Origin: Halorubrum persicum
GTDB taxonomy: Archaea; Halobacteriota; Halobacteria; Halobacteriales; Haloferacaceae
DNA: 33,543 bases
Assembly (NCBI RefSeq): GCF_002727125.1
Contig: NZ_NHOA01000110.1
Span: forward strand, 6,622 to 40,164
Direction: 5' to 3'
In this document: positions 7,234 to 31,683 of the stretch, piece by piece
How the letters are laid out: the number at the start of each line of letters is the position of its first letter
How positions within the stretch are numbered: position 1 is the stretch's first letter
Notes under the pieces: generated by a model
Seen by the model: only the letters and a program-made list of their open reading frames with translations
The model's database searches: none
What the model was told of the DNA's origin: nothing
Position numbers and translations under genes: made by a program

Positions 7234-8451
7234 CTAGCGGATGACGTCGAGTCCGTTGTTCTTCTCGGTCGGCTCGCTGCCGCCGTCGGACTCCCACGCG
7301 CCCTGCTCGGTGCCGCCCGAGGCCGCGGCGGTACCGGCAGTGCCGTTCGCCTCGGCCGCCCGCGAACGCGAGTCGCCGAGGTCGTCGCTGTTCACCGCGG
7401 CGCGGGACTTGTCCGCCTGCTTCTGGGTCGACGGACCGAGCACCTGTGCGCTCTGGACGCCCGTCATAATCGCCATGACGCGGACCTTCCCCTTGTACTC
7501 GTCCTGGATGCGGGCGCCCCAGATCACGTTGGCGCTCGCCTCCAGCCGCTCGGTGATGTTGTTCGCGATGCCCTCGGCCTCTTTGAGCGTGAGGTCCGGA
7601 CCGCCCGTGATGTGGACGAGCCCGCCGCTCGCACCGCGGTAGTCGACGTCCAAGAGGGGATGGTTCATCGCGTCGTTGACCACCTCTTGGGTCTTGTTCT
7701 TGTCCTGGGTCTCGCCGACCAACATCACGGCCACGCCGCCCTGGTTCATGATGGTCGACATGTCGGCGTAGTCCAGGTTGATGAGGCTCGGCTGGGTGAT
7801 CGTTTCGGAGATCCCCTTGACCGTCTCCGCGATGATCTGGTCCATCACGGAGAACGCCTTCCCGATCGGCAGGTTCGGCACGTAGTCGAGCAGCCGGTTG
7901 TTGTCGAGGACGATGATCGAGTCGGCCTCGTTGCGGAGGTCCTCTAACCCCTCTTCCGCCTTCACCGTGCGGGCGCGCTCGACGTTGAACGGCGTCGAGA
8001 CCATCCCGACGACGATTGCGCCCTGCTCTTTCGCGATCTTCGAGACGACCGGCGCCGCGCCGGTCCCGGTGCCGCCGCCCATCCCGGCAGTGACGAAGAC
8101 GAGGTCGGCGTCGCCGAGCACCTCTTTGATCGTTCCCTGGGCCATCTCGGTGGCGCGCTCGCCCATCTTGGGGTCGCCGCCGGCGCCGAGCCCCTGCGTG
8201 AGCGACTTGCCCACGAGGATCTTGGTGTCGGCCTCGATCATCTTGAGGTGCTGTTTGTCCGTGTTGATGGCGACGGTGTCGGCGCCGTCGACGCCGATGT
8301 TGTACAGTCGGTTGACCGTGTTGTTGCCGGCGCCGCCGGCACCGACGATGACGATTCGGGGGTCCCCGAACTCGTCGTCGTCCATGTCGACGTCCATGTC
8401 GCGCTTCTCCGCTTCCGCGTTGTCAAGGGCGTCCTGAACGAGATCTTGCAT
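7234..8451 (-). CDS. ftsZ2: Cell division protein FtsZ2
   Basis: A 405-residue tubulin-superfamily GTPase. The N-terminal nucleotide site is at residues 36-44 (VGAGGAGNN), the tubulin signature GGGTGTG at 125-131, and the T7 catalytic loop NLDYAD at 225-230. The C-terminal region after about residue 340 is a variable acidic linker ending in NGLDVIR, a short conserved tail likely to bind division partners. The Phe-poor DGDPR-to-VIVGAG start and NGLDVIR end match FtsZ2 rather than FtsZ1 as I remember the Haloferax proteins. In haloarchaea FtsZ2 acts with FtsZ1 at mid-cell and is needed for constriction. I chose the ATG at 8451 (MQDLVQDAL), four bases after the cdrS stop. The longer frame from 8496 would overlap cdrS and adds residues unlike FtsZ. 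It is co-transcribed with cdrS. Confidence 0.97.
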
Positions 8452-8455
8452 CAGT

Positions 8456-8635
8456 TTACACCTTCGCCCAGTTGCGGTTGCGGCCGCGCTCCTCACGCTC
8501 GCCGTCCTGTTCGTTCAACATGTCGCGGACGGCCGACCGGATCGCCTCGCTCCGGTTCGGGAACTCGCCCGTCTCGACCATCTGTTCGACCTCGTCGATC
8601 TGCTGTTTCGGGATTCGTAGTGTCACACGCTCCAT
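8456..8635 (-). CDS. cdrS: CdrS, short ribbon-helix-helix regulator of cell division
   Basis: A 59-residue ribbon-helix-helix protein: the beta strand [12 protein letters not shown] is followed by helix A ([11 protein letters not shown]) and helix B ([16 protein letters not shown]), then a charged tail. The size, fold and four-base gap to ftsZ2 match CdrS, which published work on Halobacterium and Haloferax describes as co-transcribed with ftsZ2 and needed for regulated cell division. The ATG at 8635 is chosen because the DNA-binding strand must be N-terminal; the longer reading from 8731 adds unrelated residues over the operator region. CdrS should bind DNA as a dimer through its strand. The inverted GTAAGAC repeats just upstream are reasonable candidate sites for it or for CdrL. 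Confidence 0.94.
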
Positions 8636-10090: not shown

Positions 10091-13000
10091 ATGCACATTA
10101 CAGAAGTGGTTTTAGACGGGTTCAAGAGCTTCGGACGAACGACGAGGATCCCCTTTTACGACGACTTCACGGTCGTCACTGGGCCGAACGGCTCCGGAAA
10201 GTCGAACATCATCGACGGGGTGCTCTTCGCACTCGGGCTGGCTCGCACCAGAGGGATCCGTGCGAAGAAGCTCACGGACCTGATCTACAACCCCGGTCAC
10301 GACGGCGGCGAGGGCGCGGACGGCCCGAACGAGGCGTCGGTGACGGTGGTGCTGTCCAACGAGGACGGGACCCTCGACCGCTCGCAGGTGGTCTCCGCGG
10401 CCGGGACGGAGAACGTCGGAGACGTCTCCGAGATCACGATCAAGCGACGCGTCAAAGAGACCGAGGACAACTACTACTCGTACTACTACCTCAACGGGCG
10501 GTCGGTGAACCTCTCCGACGTGCAGGACCTGCTCGCGGCCGCCGGGGTCACGCCCGAGGGGTACAACGTCGTGATGCAGGGCGACGTGACCGAGATCATC
10601 AACATGACCCCCTACCAGCGACGGGGGATCATCGACGAGATCGCGGGGGTCGCCGAGTTCGACGCGAAGAAGGAGGCCGCCTACGAGGAGCTGGAGACCG
10701 TCGAAGACCGGATCGGGGAGGCGGACCTCCGGATCGGAGAGAAGCAGGACCGGCTCGATCAGCTGGCCGACGAGCGCGAGACGGCCCTCCAGTATCAGGA
10801 GTACCGCGACGACCTCGACGAGTACCGCGGCTTCCTCAAGGCCTCCGAGCTGGAGGAGAAGCGCGAGACGCTCGCGGGCGTCGAAGCGGACATCGACGAC
10901 GCCGAGGCGGACCTCGAAGAGCTCCGCGTCGAGCTCGACGCCAGACAGGGGAAGCTCACGCGGCTGGAAGAGGACTTAGCCGATCTCAACCACGAGATCG
11001 AGACCAAAGGCGAGGACGAACAGATCGAGATCCGCTCGGAGATCGAGGAGGTGAAAGGCGAGATCTCGCGGTTGGAAGACCGGATCGAGACCGCCGAGGA
11101 GCGCGCCGCGGAGGCGGAGACCGAGCGCCGGGACGCCTTCGTCCAGATCGACCGCAAGGAGGAGACGATCGAGGAGCTCGACGACGAGATCCGCGAGGTG
11201 AAAGTCGAGAAGGCGTCGGTGAAATCCGAGATCGCCACGAAGCGGTCCGAGCTCGCGGACGTGGAGGCGGAGATCGAGGGCGCCGACACCGAGTTCGACG
11301 AGCTGAAGGCGGAGCTCGCGGAGAAGAAGGAGTCGGTCGAGTCGCTGCGCGAGGAGAAAAACGAGCTGCAACGCGAGAAGGACCGCCTGCTCGACGAGGC
11401 GCGCCGGCGCTCGAACGCGGTGAGCGAGGCGCGGACGGAGCTCGAGGAGGCCCGCGAGTCGCTCCCCGAACACAAAGCGCGGATCTCCGAGCTGCACAGC
11501 GAACTCGACAAGGCCCGGAAGAACGAGGAGACGATCGAGGACGCGGTCGCCGACCTGTTCGCCGACAAGGCGGAGCGGAGCGAGCGGCTGGAGGCGATCG
11601 AGGCGGACCTCCGCGAGAAGCAGAACGAGTACGCGAAGCTGGAGGCGGCCGCCGACCAGCGCGGCGACGCCTCGTGGCCGCGTGCGGTGACGGAGGTGAA
11701 GAACGGCGGGATCGACGGGGTCCACGGCGCGGTCGGCGAGCTCGGCTCGGTCGAGGCCGAGTACGCCGAGGCGTGCGAGACGGCCGCCGGCGGCCGGCTC
11801 GCGAACGTCGTCGTCGACGACGACGGAGTGGGGTCGACGTGTATCGACTACCTCAAGCGGCGCAACGCGGGTCGGGCGACGTTCCTCCCCATCACGGAGA
11901 TGGACGACCGAAGCCTCCCGCGCAAACCCTCGGTGCCGGGCGTCGTCGACTTCGCGCGTAACCTCGTGGAGTACGACAGCGAGTACGAGTCGATCTTCTC
12001 GTACGTGCTCGGCTCGACGCTGGTCGTCGAGGATATGGCGACCGCCCGCGACCTGATGGGCGACTACCGGATGGTGACGCTCGACGGGGACCTCGTCGAG
12101 AAGTCCGGGGCGATGACCGGCGGGTCGGGCGGCGGCTCCCGGTACGCCTTCACGAAGTCCGGCGGCGGGAAGCTCGAACGGCTCGCGAGCGAGATCGCGG
12201 AGCTGGAAGACGAGCGACAGGCGCTCCAGGCCGAGATCGACGAGCTCGAAGACGACATCGACGACGCCCGCGACCGGAAGGCCGACGCCGCGGAGCGCGT
12301 CCGGTCGTTGGAGGCCGACGTCGAGCGCGCCGAGGACGAACTGGCCGACGCCGAGGACCGAATCGACGAGCTCGAGGCGGAACTGGAGGAGCTGGAGGCG
12401 GAACGCGAGTCGGTCGACGCGGAGATGAGCGAGCTCGACGCCGACATCGACGAGCTGAACGCCGACATCGACGAGCTGAACGCCGACATCGACGACATCG
12501 AAACGGAGCTGGCGGACTCGAAGATCCCGGAGCTCTCGGAGCGCGCCGACGAGATCCGCGGCGAGATCGCGGACCTGGAAGACCGGATGGGCTCGCTCGA
12601 GGGGCGGCGCAACGAGCTCGAACTCGAGAGGGGGTACGCCGAGGACGCGGTCGACGACCTCCACGACACCGTCGAGACGGCGCAGAACCGGAAAGCCGAG
12701 GCCGAGGAGGCGATCGACGAGTACGAGGCCGAGATCGCGGAGCGAGAGGAGACGCTGGAGGCGAAACGCGAGGCGATCGCGGAGCTCGAAGAGGAGCTCA
12801 CGGAGCTGAAGGCCGACCGCGACGACCTCCGCGACGAGATCACCGAGGCGACCCGCGAGCGCGACGAGCAGCGGTCGCTCGTCTCGGAGGCGGAGTCGGA
12901 CTTGGAGGACCTGACCGATCGCCGCGACCGGCTGGAGTGGGAGATCGACGAGCTGGAGTCGCAGGTCGGCGACTACGACGCCGACGAGATCCCGGACCTC

Positions 13001-13672
13001 GACGAGGTGGAGGCGCGGATCGAGGAGCTGGAGGCGGAGATGGACGCGCTCGAGCCCGTCAACATGCTCGCGATCGACGAGTACGACGAGGTCCAGGAGG
13101 CGCTCGACACGCTGCAGGAGCGCCGGGACGTGCTCGTCGAGGAGCGCGACGCCATCGAGGAGCGCATCGAGGGGTACGAGGCCGAGAAGAAGCGGACGTT
13201 CATGGAGACGTTCGAGTCGATCAACGACCACTTCGAGGAGATCTTCGCGCGCCTCTCGGCCGGCAGCGGCGAGCTCCTCTTGGAGAACCCCGAAGACCCG
13301 TTCGAGGAGGGGTTGACGATGAAGGCCCAGCCCGCCGACAAGCCGGTCCAGCGGCTCGACGCGATGAGCGGCGGCGAGAAGTCGCTGACCGCGCTGTCGT
13401 TCATCTTCGCGATCCAGCGGCACAACCCCGCGCCGTTCTACGCGCTCGACGAGATCGACGCGTTCCTCGACGCGGTCAACGCCGAGCGCGTCGGCGAGAT
13501 GATCGAGGAGCTGGCCGATGACGCCCAGTTCGTCGTCGTCGGGCACCGGTCGGCGCTGCTGGAGCGCTCCGACCGCGCCATCGGCGTCACGATGCAGGGC
13601 GACAACCTCTCGGCGGTGACGGGGATGCAGTTCGGCGACGACGGCGAGGAGGAGGTGACCGCGGATGACTGA
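10091..13672 (+). CDS. smc: Chromosome segregation ATPase SMC
   Basis: A 1193-residue full-length SMC. The head N-half has Walker A at residues 31-39 (GPNGSGKSN). A coiled coil follows to about residue 510. The hinge spans about 520-680 and includes a glycine-rich GGSGGGSRYAF segment. A returning coiled coil leads to a head C-half with the ABC signature MSGGEKSLTALSF near residue 1093 and Walker B YALDEIDAFLD near 1117. The motif set and length mark a true SMC rather than Rad50 or a halophilic SMC-like Sph protein. It should form dimers that compact and organise the chromosome with the kleisin ScpA, whose gene overlaps the smc end by eight bases. Within the second arm, three 21-base units at 12431-12493 encode a repeated ELxADID heptad. 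Confidence 0.97.
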   Translation: MHITEVVLDGFKSFGRTTRIPFYDDFTVVTGPNGSGKSNIIDGVLFALGLARTRGIRAKKLTDLIYNPGHDGGEGADGPNEASVTVVLSNEDGTLDRSQVVSAAGTENVGDVSEITIKRRVKETEDNYYSYYYLNGRSVNLSDVQDLLAAAGVTPEGYNVVMQGDVTEIINMTPYQRRGIIDEIAGVAEFDAKKEAAYEELETVEDRIGEADLRIGEKQDRLDQLADERETALQYQEYRDDLDEYRGFLKASELEEKRETLAGVEADIDDAEADLEELRVELDARQGKLTRLEEDLADLNHEIETKGEDEQIEIRSEIEEVKGEISRLEDRIETAEERAAEAETERRDAFVQIDRKEETIEELDDEIREVKVEKASVKSEIATKRSELADVEAEIEGADTEFDELKAELAEKKESVESLREEKNELQREKDRLLDEARRRSNAVSEARTELEEARESLPEHKARISELHSELDKARKNEETIEDAVADLFADKAERSERLEAIEADLREKQNEYAKLEAAADQRGDASWPRAVTEVKNGGIDGVHGAVGELGSVEAEYAEACETAAGGRLANVVVDDDGVGSTCIDYLKRRNAGRATFLPITEMDDRSLPRKPSVPGVVDFARNLVEYDSEYESIFSYVLGSTLVVEDMATARDLMGDYRMVTLDGDLVEKSGAMTGGSGGGSRYAFTKSGGGKLERLASEIAELEDERQALQAEIDELEDDIDDARDRKADAAERVRSLEADVERAEDELADAEDRIDELEAELEELEAERESVDAEMSELDADIDELNADIDELNADIDDIETELADSKIPELSERADEIRGEIADLEDRMGSLEGRRNELELERGYAEDAVDDLHDTVETAQNRKAEAEEAIDEYEAEIAEREETLEAKREAIAELEEELTELKADRDDLRDEITEATRERDEQRSLVSEAESDLEDLTDRRDRLEWEIDELESQVGDYDADEIPDLDEVEARIEELEAEMDALEPVNMLAIDEYDEVQEALDTLQERRDVLVEERDAIEERIEGYEAEKKRTFMETFESINDHFEEIFARLSAGSGELLLENPEDPFEEGLTMKAQPADKPVQRLDAMSGGEKSLTALSFIFAIQRHNPAPFYALDEIDAFLDAVNAERVGEMIEELADDAQFVVVGHRSALLERSDRAIGVTMQGDNLSAVTGMQFGDDGEEEVTADD
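12431..12493 (+). repeat. Three tandem 21-bp units in the smc coiled coil
   Basis: The units are 12431-12451, 12452-12472 and 12473-12493. The second and third are identical and the first differs at three positions (CGA versus GAA inside the unit). Each encodes one seven-residue period (ELDADID or ELNADID), so any copy-number change keeps the heptad phase and lengthens the arm by one turn pair. The near identity at DNA level points to recent duplication. Confidence 0.85.
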
Positions 13673-14612
13673 GGAGTCGGCGGGCGGCGTTCCGGACCTC
13701 GACCTGACGAGCGATCGGGACGGCGGACCGCGGGACGGAGCGGCGTTCGGCGAGGTCGTCGAGGAGACCGACGAGCGGACGAGCACGGGCGACGGAGACG
13801 CCGGAGACGGAGACGAAGAGACGGTGGAGCCCGTCGAGCTCCTCGTCCAACTCGCCGAGGAGGGCGAGATCGAGCCGTGGGACATCGACATCGTACAGGT
13901 GACCGACGCGTTCCTGGAGCGGCTCGACGAGACGGACCTCCGGACGACCGGACGGGCGCTCTTCTACGCCAGCGTCCTGCTCCGGATGAAAAGCGACGGG
14001 ATGCTGGCCGACGACGACGGGGACGACGAGGAGCCCGAGCCGGAGCCGTGGGAGGTCGCGATGGAGGGTGGCGCGGCGGACCCCGCCGACGGCGACATCG
14101 ATCCGATCGACAAGCTCGAGGCGGAGATGGACCGCCGGCTCGAACGGAAGAACACCCGCGGCTCTCCCGAGACGCTCGACGAGCTGGTCCGGGAGCTCCG
14201 CGAGGCCGAGCGCGGCTCGTGGTGGAAGGACTCCCGCGAGTACGACACCTCGGAGTCGCCGCACGGCCACGCCCGCGGCACCCAGACGCTCGATTACCAC
14301 GCCGGCGACGAGTTCCGGCAGGACGGGGAGCCGACCGCCGGCGAGGCGACCGACCGCACCCACGACGAGGACATCGAGGAGGTGATCGTGGAGATCGACA
14401 ACGCCCTCCGGACCCACTTCGACCACGGGCGCACGGAGGTGTTGTTCGCCGAGATCGAGACCGCCGGCGGCCGCCCCTTCATGACGTACCTCGCGCTGCT
14501 GTTCATGGCCCATCGCGGCTCCGTGCGACTCCAGCAGGACGACCTGTTCGGCGACCTCTGGGTGAAAGACCCGGCAGCGATGACCGGGGAGTCAGAAGCG
14601 ATCGCGGACTGA
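13665..14612 (+). CDS. scpA: Segregation and condensation protein A (kleisin)
   Basis: A 315-residue kleisin. After an acidic, poorly conserved N-terminus of about 50 residues comes the ScpA core VELLVQLAEEGEIEPWDIDI, then VTDAFLERLDETDLRTTGRALFYASVLLRMKSD, which contacts the SMC neck. The middle is acidic and variable. The C-terminal winged helix (VLFAEIETAGGRPFMTYLALLFMAHRG, with LQQDDLFGDLWV) would bind the partner SMC head. It begins eight bases inside the smc frame, so translation is coupled. No ScpB is encoded in this window. It converges with the salactin gene with 19 bases between stops and no obvious terminator hairpin. Confidence 0.93.
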   Translation: MTEESAGGVPDLDLTSDRDGGPRDGAAFGEVVEETDERTSTGDGDAGDGDEETVEPVELLVQLAEEGEIEPWDIDIVQVTDAFLERLDETDLRTTGRALFYASVLLRMKSDGMLADDDGDDEEPEPEPWEVAMEGGAADPADGDIDPIDKLEAEMDRRLERKNTRGSPETLDELVRELREAERGSWWKDSREYDTSESPHGHARGTQTLDYHAGDEFRQDGEPTAGEATDRTHDEDIEEVIVEIDNALRTHFDHGRTEVLFAEIETAGGRPFMTYLALLFMAHRGSVRLQQDDLFGDLWVKDPAAMTGESEAIAD

Positions 14613-14631: not shown

Positions 14632-15663
14632 TCAGTCCTCGGCGTCCGGCGCGGCGGTTTCGGTCTCGGTGCTGGCGTCCTTGTCTTCCTCCTCGGAGCG
14701 CGCCGCGACGAGTGCGCCGCTTGCGACGCTGTACATCGGCTCGTCCGGCGAGCGGACGCCGCTGATCGAGAACGGCATGTTCGCGTCCTTGAGGTGGTCG
14801 GCGAACAGATCCTCGAATCCGCTGGGGCTGGAGGTGCCGCCGGTGACGACGACCGGCACGTCGAGTCCCTCTTCGACGTCTTCCTCGTCGACCTCTCTGC
14901 TGATGTTCTCGATGACGTAGTCGAGCAGGTTCTCGTAGTAGATGGCGAGCGCGCCCTCGACGCCGCCGACGTCGGTCCGGAAGTCCAGCTCGAAGTCGTC
15001 CTCTTTGATGCTCGTCACCTTGTCGACCGGCGTCCCGGTCGCCTGGGCGGTCTGTTCGTCAACCCAATCGCCCCCGCGGGCGATGGAGAACTTCATCACC
15101 GGCACCGCGTAGTAGGCCAGACAGACGTTCGTCATCCCGGCGCCGAAGCTGATACCGAGGCCGGTGAAGTTCTCGTCGGCGAGCTCGGAGTAGATGACGG
15201 CCATGCCCTCGTTGATCGGCTCGGGGTCGTATCCCATCTCACCGAGCATCGACTCGAGGGTCTTCTCGTGGTACAGCGTCGACAGATCCGAGTCGATCGG
15301 GTCGGCGGGACTCGAGTAGTACAGCCGTTCGTCCGGCCGCGATGGCTCTCCGACGACCTGCTCTGTGATGAGCTTGATCATCGGGATCGCCGACGACTCG
15401 TTGCTGGAGAGGATGCCGTGCTGCATCGGCCGGCGTGTTTCCTCGTTGAATATGTTCGCAAAGTTAAGCGCATCGTCGCCGACGACGTACACCTCGTCGT
15501 CCTTTCGAATGTGAAGGACGTTGCTCCGTGAGAGCATCTGCTCGGCCATATCACTATACTCGATCTCGACGAATGAGTTGCGCTGTTGGACGAAAACGGT
15601 TTCGGCACCCTCCTGCCGCGCGGAGAGGATGTTCATCGTTCCGACGTCAAGCCCCTTGGCCAT
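14632..15663 (-). CDS. Salactin-like actin homologue
   Basis: A 343-residue actin/Hsp70-fold protein. Phosphate-1 loop LDVGTMN is at residues 5-11. Phosphate-2 loop [16 protein letters not shown] comes mid-protein, followed by [15 protein letters not shown], an MreB/ParM-like region. The adenosine motif [16 protein letters not shown] is near residue 285, and a short Glu/Asp/Ser/Thr tail follows. The N-terminal [19 protein letters not shown] and its haloarchaeal context match salactin, described in Halobacterium as a dynamically unstable actin filament at cell poles with a proposed role in DNA segregation. A minus-strand TATA (CTTATGT, 15686-15692) with a purine-rich BRE (CGAAAG) lies 23-29 bases before the ATG, so the transcript should be leaderless. 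Convergence on scpA places two DNA-partitioning systems side by side. Confidence 0.88.
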
Positions 15664-29000: not shown

Positions 29001-29114
29001 ACAGCGCGGGGCGACCACGGCGACGACGGGATCGACGCGGCGACGAACCGGCGAGCGAGGAGTTCTGTCCCGAACGCCGGGATTGTTATTAACCGAGATA
29101 ATTCGCGTCGAGCG

Positions 29115-29122
29115 ATTATATA
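29115..29122 (+). promoter_or_regulatory. TATA box of the chemoreceptor fusion gene
   Basis: ATTATATA lies 24-31 bases before the ATG at 29146 and is among the best TATA boxes in the window. It fixes the start against the longer open frame from 29083, whose first codons lie upstream of the box. Confidence 0.65.
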
Positions 29123-29145
29123 CTCTCACGCGAAACGAGCGGCAA

Positions 29146-31683
29146 ATGGATCGCAACGGCACCCGGAACCGATCGGACGAGTCGGAGATGGACCGAGAGA
29201 TCGGGTCGGAGTCGAACGGCCGCGACCCCACTGAAGCGGCGGCACAGACGACGGGCGGGGAGAGGACACAGACCGCGAACGGAGAGACGACCCAGGCCGC
29301 AGGTGGCGACGTGCCGATCGACGCGTTCCGCGAGGTCGCGGCGCAGCTCGCAGGGGGCGACCTCGGGGCGCGGTTCCCGGAGGCGGCGGCGAGCGGTGAG
29401 GCCGCCGCGCTCGCAGGGGATCTCAACGCGTTCGTCGAGGGGGTCGCCGAAACCCTGTCCGCGGCGGAGGGGTTCGGGGACGAGGTCTCGGGGGCCTCCG
29501 AACACGTGCGGTCGAACGTCGCCCGAGCGAAGGGGCAGAGCGGCGACGTGTACGAGGCGGTCGACGGGATCGAGGCGGCGGCGACCCGCCAGCGAGACGA
29601 CATCGCGGAGGCGACCCGAGAGCTGCAGAGCGTCTCGGCGGCGACGGAAGAGGTCGCGGCGTCGGCGGAGGAGGTGGCGACCACGGCGGGGAACGTCGCC
29701 GAGCGCGCCGACGAGGGGAACGACGCCGCGGCCGCGGCGATCGAGGAGCTCCAAGTGGTCGACGAGCGGACCGAGACGGCGCTCGACCGCGTCGAGGAGC
29801 TGGAGGCGGAGGTCGCGGCGATCGAAGACGTCACCGACCTCATCCGGGACATCGCCGACGAGACGAACATCCTCGCGCTGAACGCCTCCATCGAGGCCGC
29901 CAGAGCGGGCGAGGCCGGTGCCGGGTTCGAGGTCGTCGCCGAGGAGGTCAAGAGCCTCGCCGAGGAGTCCCGCGACGCCACGAGCGAGATCGAGTCGTCG
30001 ATCGGCTCGGTGCGCGACGAGACCGACGCCACCGTCGCGGAGATCACGGACATGCGCGAGCGGGTCGGCGAGGGAATCGACACCGCCGAGAGCGCCCTCG
30101 AGGCGTTCACCGACTTGGCCGACGACATCGAGGAGACCACGAGCGGCGTCGAAGAGATCAGCGACGCGACCGACGACCAAGCGGCGGCGATCGAGGAAGC
30201 GGTCGACATGGTCGAAACGGTCGGGGAGCTCGCGGCCGACACCGCCGAGGACGCTGCCGAGGTGACGACGATCGCCCACACGCAAAAGACGTCGCTGACC
30301 GAGGTGGCGGCCGGCGCGTCGACGCTGAGTGACCGGACCGGAGCCCTCGACGACCGGCTCGACGCCTACGACCTCGCCGGGAGCGCGGCGGGCGACGACG
30401 ACACGGTCGTCGAGTTCTGGCACGCGCTCGGGGGACGGAAAGCGCGGCTGCTCGACGAGTTCGTCGACGAGTTCGAGGCGGCGACCGAGGGCGTCTCGGT
30501 CCGCCCCTCCTCGAAGGGGAGCTACCGGGGCGTGTTCGACGCCACCCTCGCCGCGGCCGACCGGGGTGACCCTCCGGCGATCGCGCACCTCTACGAGATC
30601 GGGACCAAGCGCGCGCTCGACAGCGGGGCGTTCGCCCCGGTCGAGGACCTCCTCGCCGACGTGTCCCGAGGGAGGGGCGGCGTGGCCGACGAGATCGCCG
30701 CGGAAGCGAGCCTCGACCCCGACGACCTCCTCGACCCCGTCGCGAACTACTACCGGACCGACGGTCGGCTCCACTCGCTCCCGTTCAACGCCTCGACGCC
30801 CGTGCTCTACTACGACCGCGATGCCTTCGAGCGCGCCGGGTTGAATCCGGACGACCCGCCGTCGACGTTCGCCGAGGTGCGGCACTGCGCCGAGCGGCTG
30901 GTCGACCGCGGCGGCGCCGAGGCCGGGATCACGTTCGCGAACTACTCGTGGTTCGTCGAACAGTGGTTCGCCGAGGCGGGGCAACCGCTCGTCGACGCCG
31001 AGAACGGCCGCGCCGGAACGCCGACCGAGGCGTACTTCGACGCCGAGGCGGGCGAACGCGTGTACGAGTGGATCGCCGACATGGCCGCCGACGGCCTCTA
31101 CCTCGACCCCGGGATCGAGGCCCGAGGACGGGCACGAGAGGCGTTCCACGAGGGACGCGCCGGGATGTTGATCGGGTCGACCTCGGCGATGGTGGGAGTG
31201 CGCGAGGGCGCGTCGTTCCCGGTCGGGACCGGGTACTTCCCGGTGGCCGACGAGCGTCACGGCGTCGTCGTCGGTGGCGGCTCGCTGTGGATTGCCGACC
31301 GGGCGTCGACCGAGCAGCAGCGGGCGGCTGCCGCGTTCCTCGGGTGGCTCGCCGCGCCGGAACAGCAGGCGCGGTGGCATCGGGAGACCGGCTACTTCCC
31401 GGTTCACGAGGGCGCCGTCGATCGACTCGCGCGAGACGGGTGGTTCGACGGGAACCCCGGGTACCGGACGGCGATGGATCAGCTGCTGGACGCCAAGGCG
31501 TCACCGGCCACGTCCGGTGCGCGAATGGGTCCGTTCGACACCGTCCGGACCCTGGTCGCCGAGGCCTCCGTCGAGGCCCGCGAGCACGGCGTCGGCGAGG
31601 CGCTCGACAGGCTCACAGAGAGCGCGGAGCTACAGCTCCGATCGTACGCGGAGAACGCCGAAACGAGAGTGGACACCCGGTAG
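29146..31683 (+). CDS. Soluble chemotaxis transducer fused to an ABC-type solute-binding domain
   Basis: An 845-residue protein. Residues 1-55 are polar low complexity. About 56-105 resembles a HAMP-like unit (FREVAAQLAGGDLGARFPEA). About 110-410 is the methyl-accepting coiled-coil hairpin with its conserved tip near 231-275 (IRDIADETNILALNASIEAA, then the GAGFEVVAEEVKSLAEES arm), which binds CheA and CheW. From about 417 to the end is a family-1 extracellular solute-binding fold: VVEFWHALGGRKARLLDEFV, later LHSLPFNASTPVLYYDRDAF, GRAGMLIGSTSAM and ETGYFPVHEGAVD, closest by eye to UgpB/MalE-like sugar or glycerol-phosphate binders. There is no signal peptide and no membrane span, so the binding domain should be cytosolic. 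I infer an intracellular metabolite sensor feeding the archaellum. No che or transporter genes are nearby. Confidence 0.9.
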   Translation: MDRNGTRNRSDESEMDREIGSESNGRDPTEAAAQTTGGERTQTANGETTQAAGGDVPIDAFREVAAQLAGGDLGARFPEAAASGEAAALAGDLNAFVEGVAETLSAAEGFGDEVSGASEHVRSNVARAKGQSGDVYEAVDGIEAAATRQRDDIAEATRELQSVSAATEEVAASAEEVATTAGNVAERADEGNDAAAAAIEELQVVDERTETALDRVEELEAEVAAIEDVTDLIRDIADETNILALNASIEAARAGEAGAGFEVVAEEVKSLAEESRDATSEIESSIGSVRDETDATVAEITDMRERVGEGIDTAESALEAFTDLADDIEETTSGVEEISDATDDQAAAIEEAVDMVETVGELAADTAEDAAEVTTIAHTQKTSLTEVAAGASTLSDRTGALDDRLDAYDLAGSAAGDDDTVVEFWHALGGRKARLLDEFVDEFEAATEGVSVRPSSKGSYRGVFDATLAAADRGDPPAIAHLYEIGTKRALDSGAFAPVEDLLADVSRGRGGVADEIAAEASLDPDDLLDPVANYYRTDGRLHSLPFNASTPVLYYDRDAFERAGLNPDDPPSTFAEVRHCAERLVDRGGAEAGITFANYSWFVEQWFAEAGQPLVDAENGRAGTPTEAYFDAEAGERVYEWIADMAADGLYLDPGIEARGRAREAFHEGRAGMLIGSTSAMVGVREGASFPVGTGYFPVADERHGVVVGGGSLWIADRASTEQQRAAAAFLGWLAAPEQQARWHRETGYFPVHEGAVDRLARDGWFDGNPGYRTAMDQLLDAKASPATSGARMGPFDTVRTLVAEASVEAREHGVGEALDRLTESAELQLRSYAENAETRVDTR

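Follow-up and report, generated by a model that had tools for sequence, protein, structure and literature searches.

Several described systems bear on the receptor reported here. In Halobacterium, the BasB/BasT and CosB/CosT pairs resemble it in that a solute-binding protein (SBP) feeds a chemoreceptor, but there the binding protein is separate and extracytoplasmic and the transducer is a membrane protein, whereas the receptor described below is a single soluble polypeptide lying inside the cell. A cytosolic precedent is provided by Car (Htr11) of Halobacterium salinarum, a cytoplasmic receptor for arginine cited in PMC3579733: this too is a haloarchaeal MCP that is soluble and serves an internal nutrient, the likeness drawn here being a functional one, although its ligand is arginine and the accessible part of that article mentions no UgpB-type domain. 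More broadly, a 2022 survey (PMC9680633), in its accessible part, gives 44% of archaeal MCPs as cytoplasmic and some as having C-terminal ligand-binding domains, and lists SBP_bac among archaeal chemoreceptor domain families. As a class, therefore, the architecture is not new, and the fusions considered here may well be among the proteins in the supplementary tables of that survey; its SBP_bac chemoreceptors belong to the same broad class, and the accessible main text is silent on their subfamily, ligand, genomic context and mechanism.

The closest relative of the binding half is UgpB, the component of the UgpBAEC importer that binds glycerol phosphate. Its pocket holds both G1P and sn-glycerol-3-phosphate (G3P), and mutagenesis shows that the tryptophans of its clamp, W188 and W191, matter for G3P binding (PMC12718374). 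None of the articles that we found describes the fusion's UgpB identity, invariant pocket, single origin or glp linkage, joins UgpB and haloarchaeal chemotaxis, or reports a receptor for haloarchaeal glycerol taxis.

Gene, start codon and topology

The window (the whole stretch of DNA analysed, 33,543 nt) derives from a Halorubrum genome, whose nearest relatives are H. lipolyticum and H. kocurii. The gene in question is an ORF of 845 residues running from the ATG at 29146 to the stop at 31683 (29146..31683, + strand); on the basis of the ORF itself, Pfam, orthologues and an AlphaFold2 model, it encodes a cytosolic MCP–UgpB-like fusion receptor. Its neighbours encode an FtsJ-TRAM methyltransferase and a dihydrofolate reductase, with no UgpA, UgpE or UgpC among them, and it has no export signal. 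Elsewhere, a single stretch of the window holds two cytoskeletal genes together with SMC-ScpA: a volactin gene (archaeal actin, Pfam PF25216, E 2e-135) at 14635–15663 (− strand) adjoins the SMC and ScpA pair (10091–14609), and an FtsZ-family gene with Tubulin and FtsZ_C domains lies about 6 kb from it, at 7237–8496 (− strand).

A TATA box, TTATATAC (29116..29123, + strand), is centred ~26 nt 5' of the ATG and is kept in Halorubrum orthologues, seven others having a counterpart at the same distance from their start codons. This spacing suggests that the gene is expressed as a leaderless transcript beginning at ATG 29146; moreover, the conserved box supports this start, and leaves no room for a longer start model with a signal peptide. 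The alternative TTG start at 29083 would prepend MLLTEIIRVERLYTLTRNERQ, which is unlike a signal sequence. The best Kyte–Doolittle (KD) 19-mer in the window protein reaches just 0.94, with no transmembrane span and no signal peptide, and neither a Tat/Sec signal nor a transmembrane helix is present in any start model. The low hydropathy and the conserved TATA box together rule out a secreted or membrane-spanning topology for the window protein, and the sequence-only reading of this DNA, which had noted the lack of both features, was correct.

Provided that the hairpin tip engages CheA/CheW in the cytosol, the binding domain, which comes after the return arm with no membrane span between them, is also inside, as had been proposed for sensor and ligand domain alike. 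The protein is a cytosolic chemoreceptor. That it might instead be exported or anchored, with its binding domain outside like that of ordinary SBPs, is extremely improbable: the fusions are devoid of the Tat-like lipoprotein signals carried by their stand-alone SBP relatives, and an MCP hairpin on the outside could not reach CheA. What favours export is the presence, in the Halohasta and Halonotius orthologues (L015, L016, L019 and L026–L029), of one or two hydrophobic N-terminal stretches ahead of an acidic linker, with KD values of up to 2.2, but no stretch of comparable strength is seen in the Halorubrum, Haloarcula or Haloferax orthologues. To judge from these stretches, the receptor of the Halohasta/Halonotius branch may be membrane-attached.

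The signalling half

The protein begins with a disordered tail (residues 1–55; 29146..29310, + strand; pLDDT about 30) that varies among orthologues. This is followed by a HAMP-like stretch (residues 57–98; 29314..29439, + strand) that falls below the Pfam cut-off for HAMP (E 0.0025; 18.5 bits versus 25), and in which G71, D72 and L73 are near-invariant across 30 fusions. The MCP coiled-coil hairpin occupies residues 85–405 (29398..30360, + strand), as delineated by the AlphaFold2 monomer, in which this segment is modelled as a single continuous helix, by Pfam, and by alignment to 2ch7 and 6s18. The MCPsignal match covers residues 193–360 (E 9e-38; 130.2 bits versus a cut-off of 34.6). The alignment to 6s18 and 2ch7 runs through the hairpin tip, DETNILALNASIEAARAGEAGAGF (residues 239–262; 29860..29931, + strand), the region of contact with CheA/CheW; here, the columns that are invariant in the 30 fusions include T240, N241, L243–A247, I249, A251, A252, G258, G260 and F261. 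Relative to 2ch7, the alignment suggests that the coiled coil of the fusion receptor has about one extra heptad per arm. The window protein thus has the attributes of an MCP, namely an MCPsignal score above the curated cut-off, a conserved tip and a CheA encoded in its own genome.

The solute-binding half and its pocket

Residues 417–843 (30394..31674, + strand) constitute a UgpB-like solute-binding domain, as identified by Pfam, phmmer, Foldseek and structure alignment. SBP_bac_8 matches residues 439–759 (E 3e-37, above the cut-off), SBP_bac_1 matches the C-terminal half with E 7e-25, and phmmer gives E. coli UgpB (4aq4) as the best solved relative, with a full-length match at E 5e-59. An AlphaFold2 model of the whole protein, based on a 30-sequence orthologue alignment, has a mean pLDDT of 77.5, with values mostly between 80 and 96 in the binding domain. 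Residues 418–838 of this model superpose on UgpB 6x84 (the W169S/W172S mutant) with Z 51.3 and an rmsd of 1.4 Å for 404 aligned residues, and Foldseek concurs (E 6e-32). Four UgpB entries head the structural list, 4aq4 and 9lff following 6x84 with Z scores of 45–46; the next matches, at about Z 35–40, are M. tuberculosis UgpB and sugar- or dinucleotide-binding proteins. The earlier claim that an MCP hairpin is joined, in reversed order, to a complete solute-binding domain is therefore upheld by MCPsignal and SBP_bac_8 matches that both exceed their cut-offs, and the proposed fold by the match to 6x84. Of the comparison with UgpB/MalE, the UgpB part stands, since the domain is specifically UgpB-like, and the generic label does not.

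The resemblance to UgpB of E. coli (4aq4/6x84) and Phaeobacter (9lff) embraces the whole-domain fold (Z 45–51) and eight of the nine glycerol-phosphate contacts. Unlike UgpB, however, the fused domain lies behind an MCP hairpin, has neither export signal nor adjoining transporter genes, and has Asn or Thr in place of one clamp Trp. Additionally, it does not reach the NCBIfam equivalog for UgpB, NF008211 (228 bits versus a cut-off of 411), and nor does a stand-alone haloarchaeal homologue encoded beside UgpA/E/C (237 bits).

The ligand contacts reported for UgpB (PMC12718374; given below in Phaeobacter/E. coli numbering) were transferred by alignment to 43 fusions. The phosphate contacts are represented by Y460 (Y64/Y42; 30523..30525), S550 (S143/S121; 30793..30795), S678 (S266/S247; 31177..31179) and Y750 (Y342/Y323; 31393..31395), and those to the glycerol hydroxyls by E484 (E88/E66; 30595..30597), G711 (G303; 31276..31278) and R801 (R393/R374; 31546..31548), all on the + strand. 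These seven polar contacts are all kept and, together with W602 (W191/W172; 30949..30951, + strand), the second clamp Trp, they are invariant in 43/43 fusions; given that 79 of the 427 positions are invariant, the probability of eight invariant contacts arising by chance is about 1e-6. The two-Trp clamp of the window protein is, however, incomplete: the first Trp (W188/W169) is replaced by N599 (30940..30942, + strand), a position at which 35 of the 43 fusions have Asn and the other 8 have Thr.

An Asn at the W188 position is also seen in seven haloarchaeal stand-alone UgpB homologues; in Haloferax larsenii, the gene for one stand-alone homologue lies with those for UgpA, UgpE, UgpC and a glycerophosphodiester phosphodiesterase. 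With eight contacts kept and the Asn shared with stand-alone proteins, the family retains a glycerol-phosphate frame with a relaxed clamp and, given that transporter SBPs have the same Asn, this relaxation is not peculiar to the fusion as an adaptation. Nonetheless, the loss of the first clamp Trp means that the affinity or the ligand of the fusion may differ. Bacterial UgpB proteins have affinities near 1 micromolar; sensing a metabolite inside the cell would call for weaker binding, which a relaxed clamp would fit. Moreover, the fusions have Y600 and R660 where the stand-alone haloarchaeal SBPs are fixed for His and Trp, respectively, differences that, on alignment, may alter the specificity of the fused domain. 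The genome of the window also encodes, on contigs C25 and C33, two near-identical stand-alone UgpB-like lipoproteins (L075 and L076), which are about 40% identical to the fused domain and read NNSNA at the position of NSSTP in UgpB.

The incomplete clamp might be taken to mean that the binding domain is a ligand-free relic, serving as a folded end-piece or an oligomerization module. We regard this as very improbable, as the eight ligand residues are invariant in 43 sequences despite a binding-domain identity between genera that is often just 50–60%, and as the binding domain is better conserved across the fusions than the MCP half.

Distribution and origin of the fusion

A search for related loci returned 53, mostly encoding the same MCP–UgpB fusion. 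In an even sample of the class Halobacteria, 55 of 292 genomes, from several families, carry it (a count of matches with the MCP part in frame, two of them on truncated or split frames; fusion counts, co-occurrences and glpK distances were read by hand from tables). The order, MCP then SBP, is kept in Halorubrum, Haloferax, Haloarcula, Halomicrobium, Halohasta, Halonotius and Halobiforma. The survey of haloarchaea called for by the sequence-only reading therefore finds the architecture to be widespread in the class and not unique to this genome and, with so many separate assemblies involved, a chance ORF or an assembly join is ruled out. In a tree of 56 binding domains, all 39 fusions form one clade (98/98), with the stand-alone haloarchaeal lipoproteins outside it, which rules out repeated independent fusions in favour of a single origin. 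The MCP–UgpB fusion is real and old.

Bacterial matches (Devosia and Brucella) are stand-alone SBPs, plasmid records, among the matches listed, matched the binding-domain part alone, and in a phylum-wide sample of 247 genomes, the fusion was not matched outside the order to which the window belongs; other SBP families may still form fusions elsewhere. A candidate second type of fusion, represented by long open frames in three genomes (G170, G026 and, on contig C25, G000), was rejected, as these are stand-alone lipoprotein SBPs with upstream read-through. Disrupted copies are seen among the loci L010 (3710–6269), L068 and L077: two overlapping frames replace the single fusion ORF in Halorubrum distributum, and a Haloarcula-type genome (G188) has a broken binding domain; these are either pseudogenes or sequencing errors.

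CheA is encoded in 55/55 fusion genomes, including that of the window, versus 185 of the 237 others, and GlpK in 55/55 versus 201/237. The corresponding Fisher p values, 8e-6 for CheA and 4e-4 for GlpK, overstate the strength of co-occurrence because the genomes are related and not independent, and GlpK is common across the Halobacteria regardless of the fusion.

Genomic context

In about 23 of the 55 fusion genomes, including those of Haloarcula, Halohasta and Halonotius, at most about 5 kb separates the receptor gene from glpK. Genes of these loci were identified using Pfam and NCBIfam, except that glpC was named by its position and iron-sulphur-like N-terminus and not by a model. In Haloarcula, Halomicrobium and allied genomes, the order is a divergent glpA-glpB-glpC, receptor, glpK, membrane protein and Cdc6-type gene; glpK starts about 140 bp 3' of the receptor gene in 16 genomes. 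In Halohasta, it is glpK, membrane protein, cdc6, receptor, HPr and enzyme I, with DhaM and DhaL (dihydroxyacetone-kinase subunits) nearby, and the Halonotius locus matches this as far as HPr. In seven further genomes, glpK is no more than about 5 kb from the receptor gene.

In most genomes, the gene directly 3' of glpK encodes a membrane protein with no Pfam match (L017, 7881–9002, and homologues; L083, 310–1473), whereas in Halomicrobium katesii, this position is taken by an aquaglyceroporin-type MIP channel; given this shared position, the membrane protein is a candidate for a different kind of glycerol channel. A Cdc6/Orc1-type AAA gene is also kept beside glpK in several genera (L017, 9071–10243; L018, 8816–10021; L015, 2189–3355).

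In Halorubrum, Haloferax and some others, the receptor gene lies away from glp. Indeed, in the genome of the window, glpK and glpA are found together on another contig without the receptor, so in the Halorubrum and Haloferax branches, the linkage was either lost or never gained.

None of the loci examined links the receptor gene to che or archaellum genes, as might be expected if the protein were a chemosensory-array receptor with no part in glycerol steering, having a non-motility output or tuning array activity to growth state. With the hairpin tip intact and the co-occurrence with CheA strict, we think this quite unlikely.

Proposed function

A UgpB pocket inside the cell, and a gene in a glycerol locus, point to G3P, the product of GlpK, as the ligand. 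The earlier suggestion that a substrate might be sensed after uptake is strengthened by the invariance of the polar glycerol-phosphate contacts and the glycerol catabolic locus of other lineages, both of which would be in keeping with it. A receptor of the same architecture and location could, however, respond to another internal glycerol-phosphate compound, such as G1P, the precursor of archaeal lipids, DHAP, or a glycerophosphodiester released as lipids turn over, in which case it would report lipid precursor or phosphorus status and not glycerol use. UgpB itself binds G1P and G3P alike (PMC12718374), a pocket lacking the first clamp Trp could be wider, and the stand-alone homologue adjoins a glycerophosphodiester phosphodiesterase gene; against this, several lineages link the receptor gene to glpK/glpABC, that is, to glycerol catabolism, and not to lipid synthesis genes, and we consider such a ligand unlikely.

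We favour G3P: the protein is probably a soluble cytosolic chemoreceptor whose UgpB-type Venus-flytrap input reads intracellular G3P, giving metabolism-coupled glycerol taxis. The glycerol that the alga Dunaliella releases is considered a main source of carbon for the haloarchaea of salterns. For Haloferax, formation of G3P by way of glycerol kinase is established, according to the accessible parts of two articles (PMC12853182, PMC12366361). Under the proposed mechanism, glycerol would enter the cell and be phosphorylated to G3P by GlpK, and the rising G3P pool would close the C-terminal flytrap. By closing, the flytrap, which is joined to the membrane-free MCP coiled coil at its tip-distal end, would shift how that coil packs and thereby alter the activity of tip-bound CheA, and the cells would steer towards sites of glycerol uptake and metabolism: glycerol taxis read one step inside metabolism. 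What we infer is the ligand itself, the sign of the response and the mechanical link between flytrap and hairpin. There is perhaps an even chance that the receptor steers cells by the intracellular G3P pool and that it arose in haloarchaea through a single capture of an importer's extracellular flytrap, which was brought inside, attached after an MCP hairpin and installed in the glycerol catabolic locus, such that cells follow the flux through glycerol kinase and not the glycerol outside.

If true, a G3P receptor would supply a concrete example, at the molecular level, of taxis coupled to metabolism, with a single named ligand and in genetically usable organisms. Moreover, a flytrap built for extracellular work would be able to act as an internal sensor, which would bear on the interpretation of the many C-terminal domains found in archaeal chemoreceptors.
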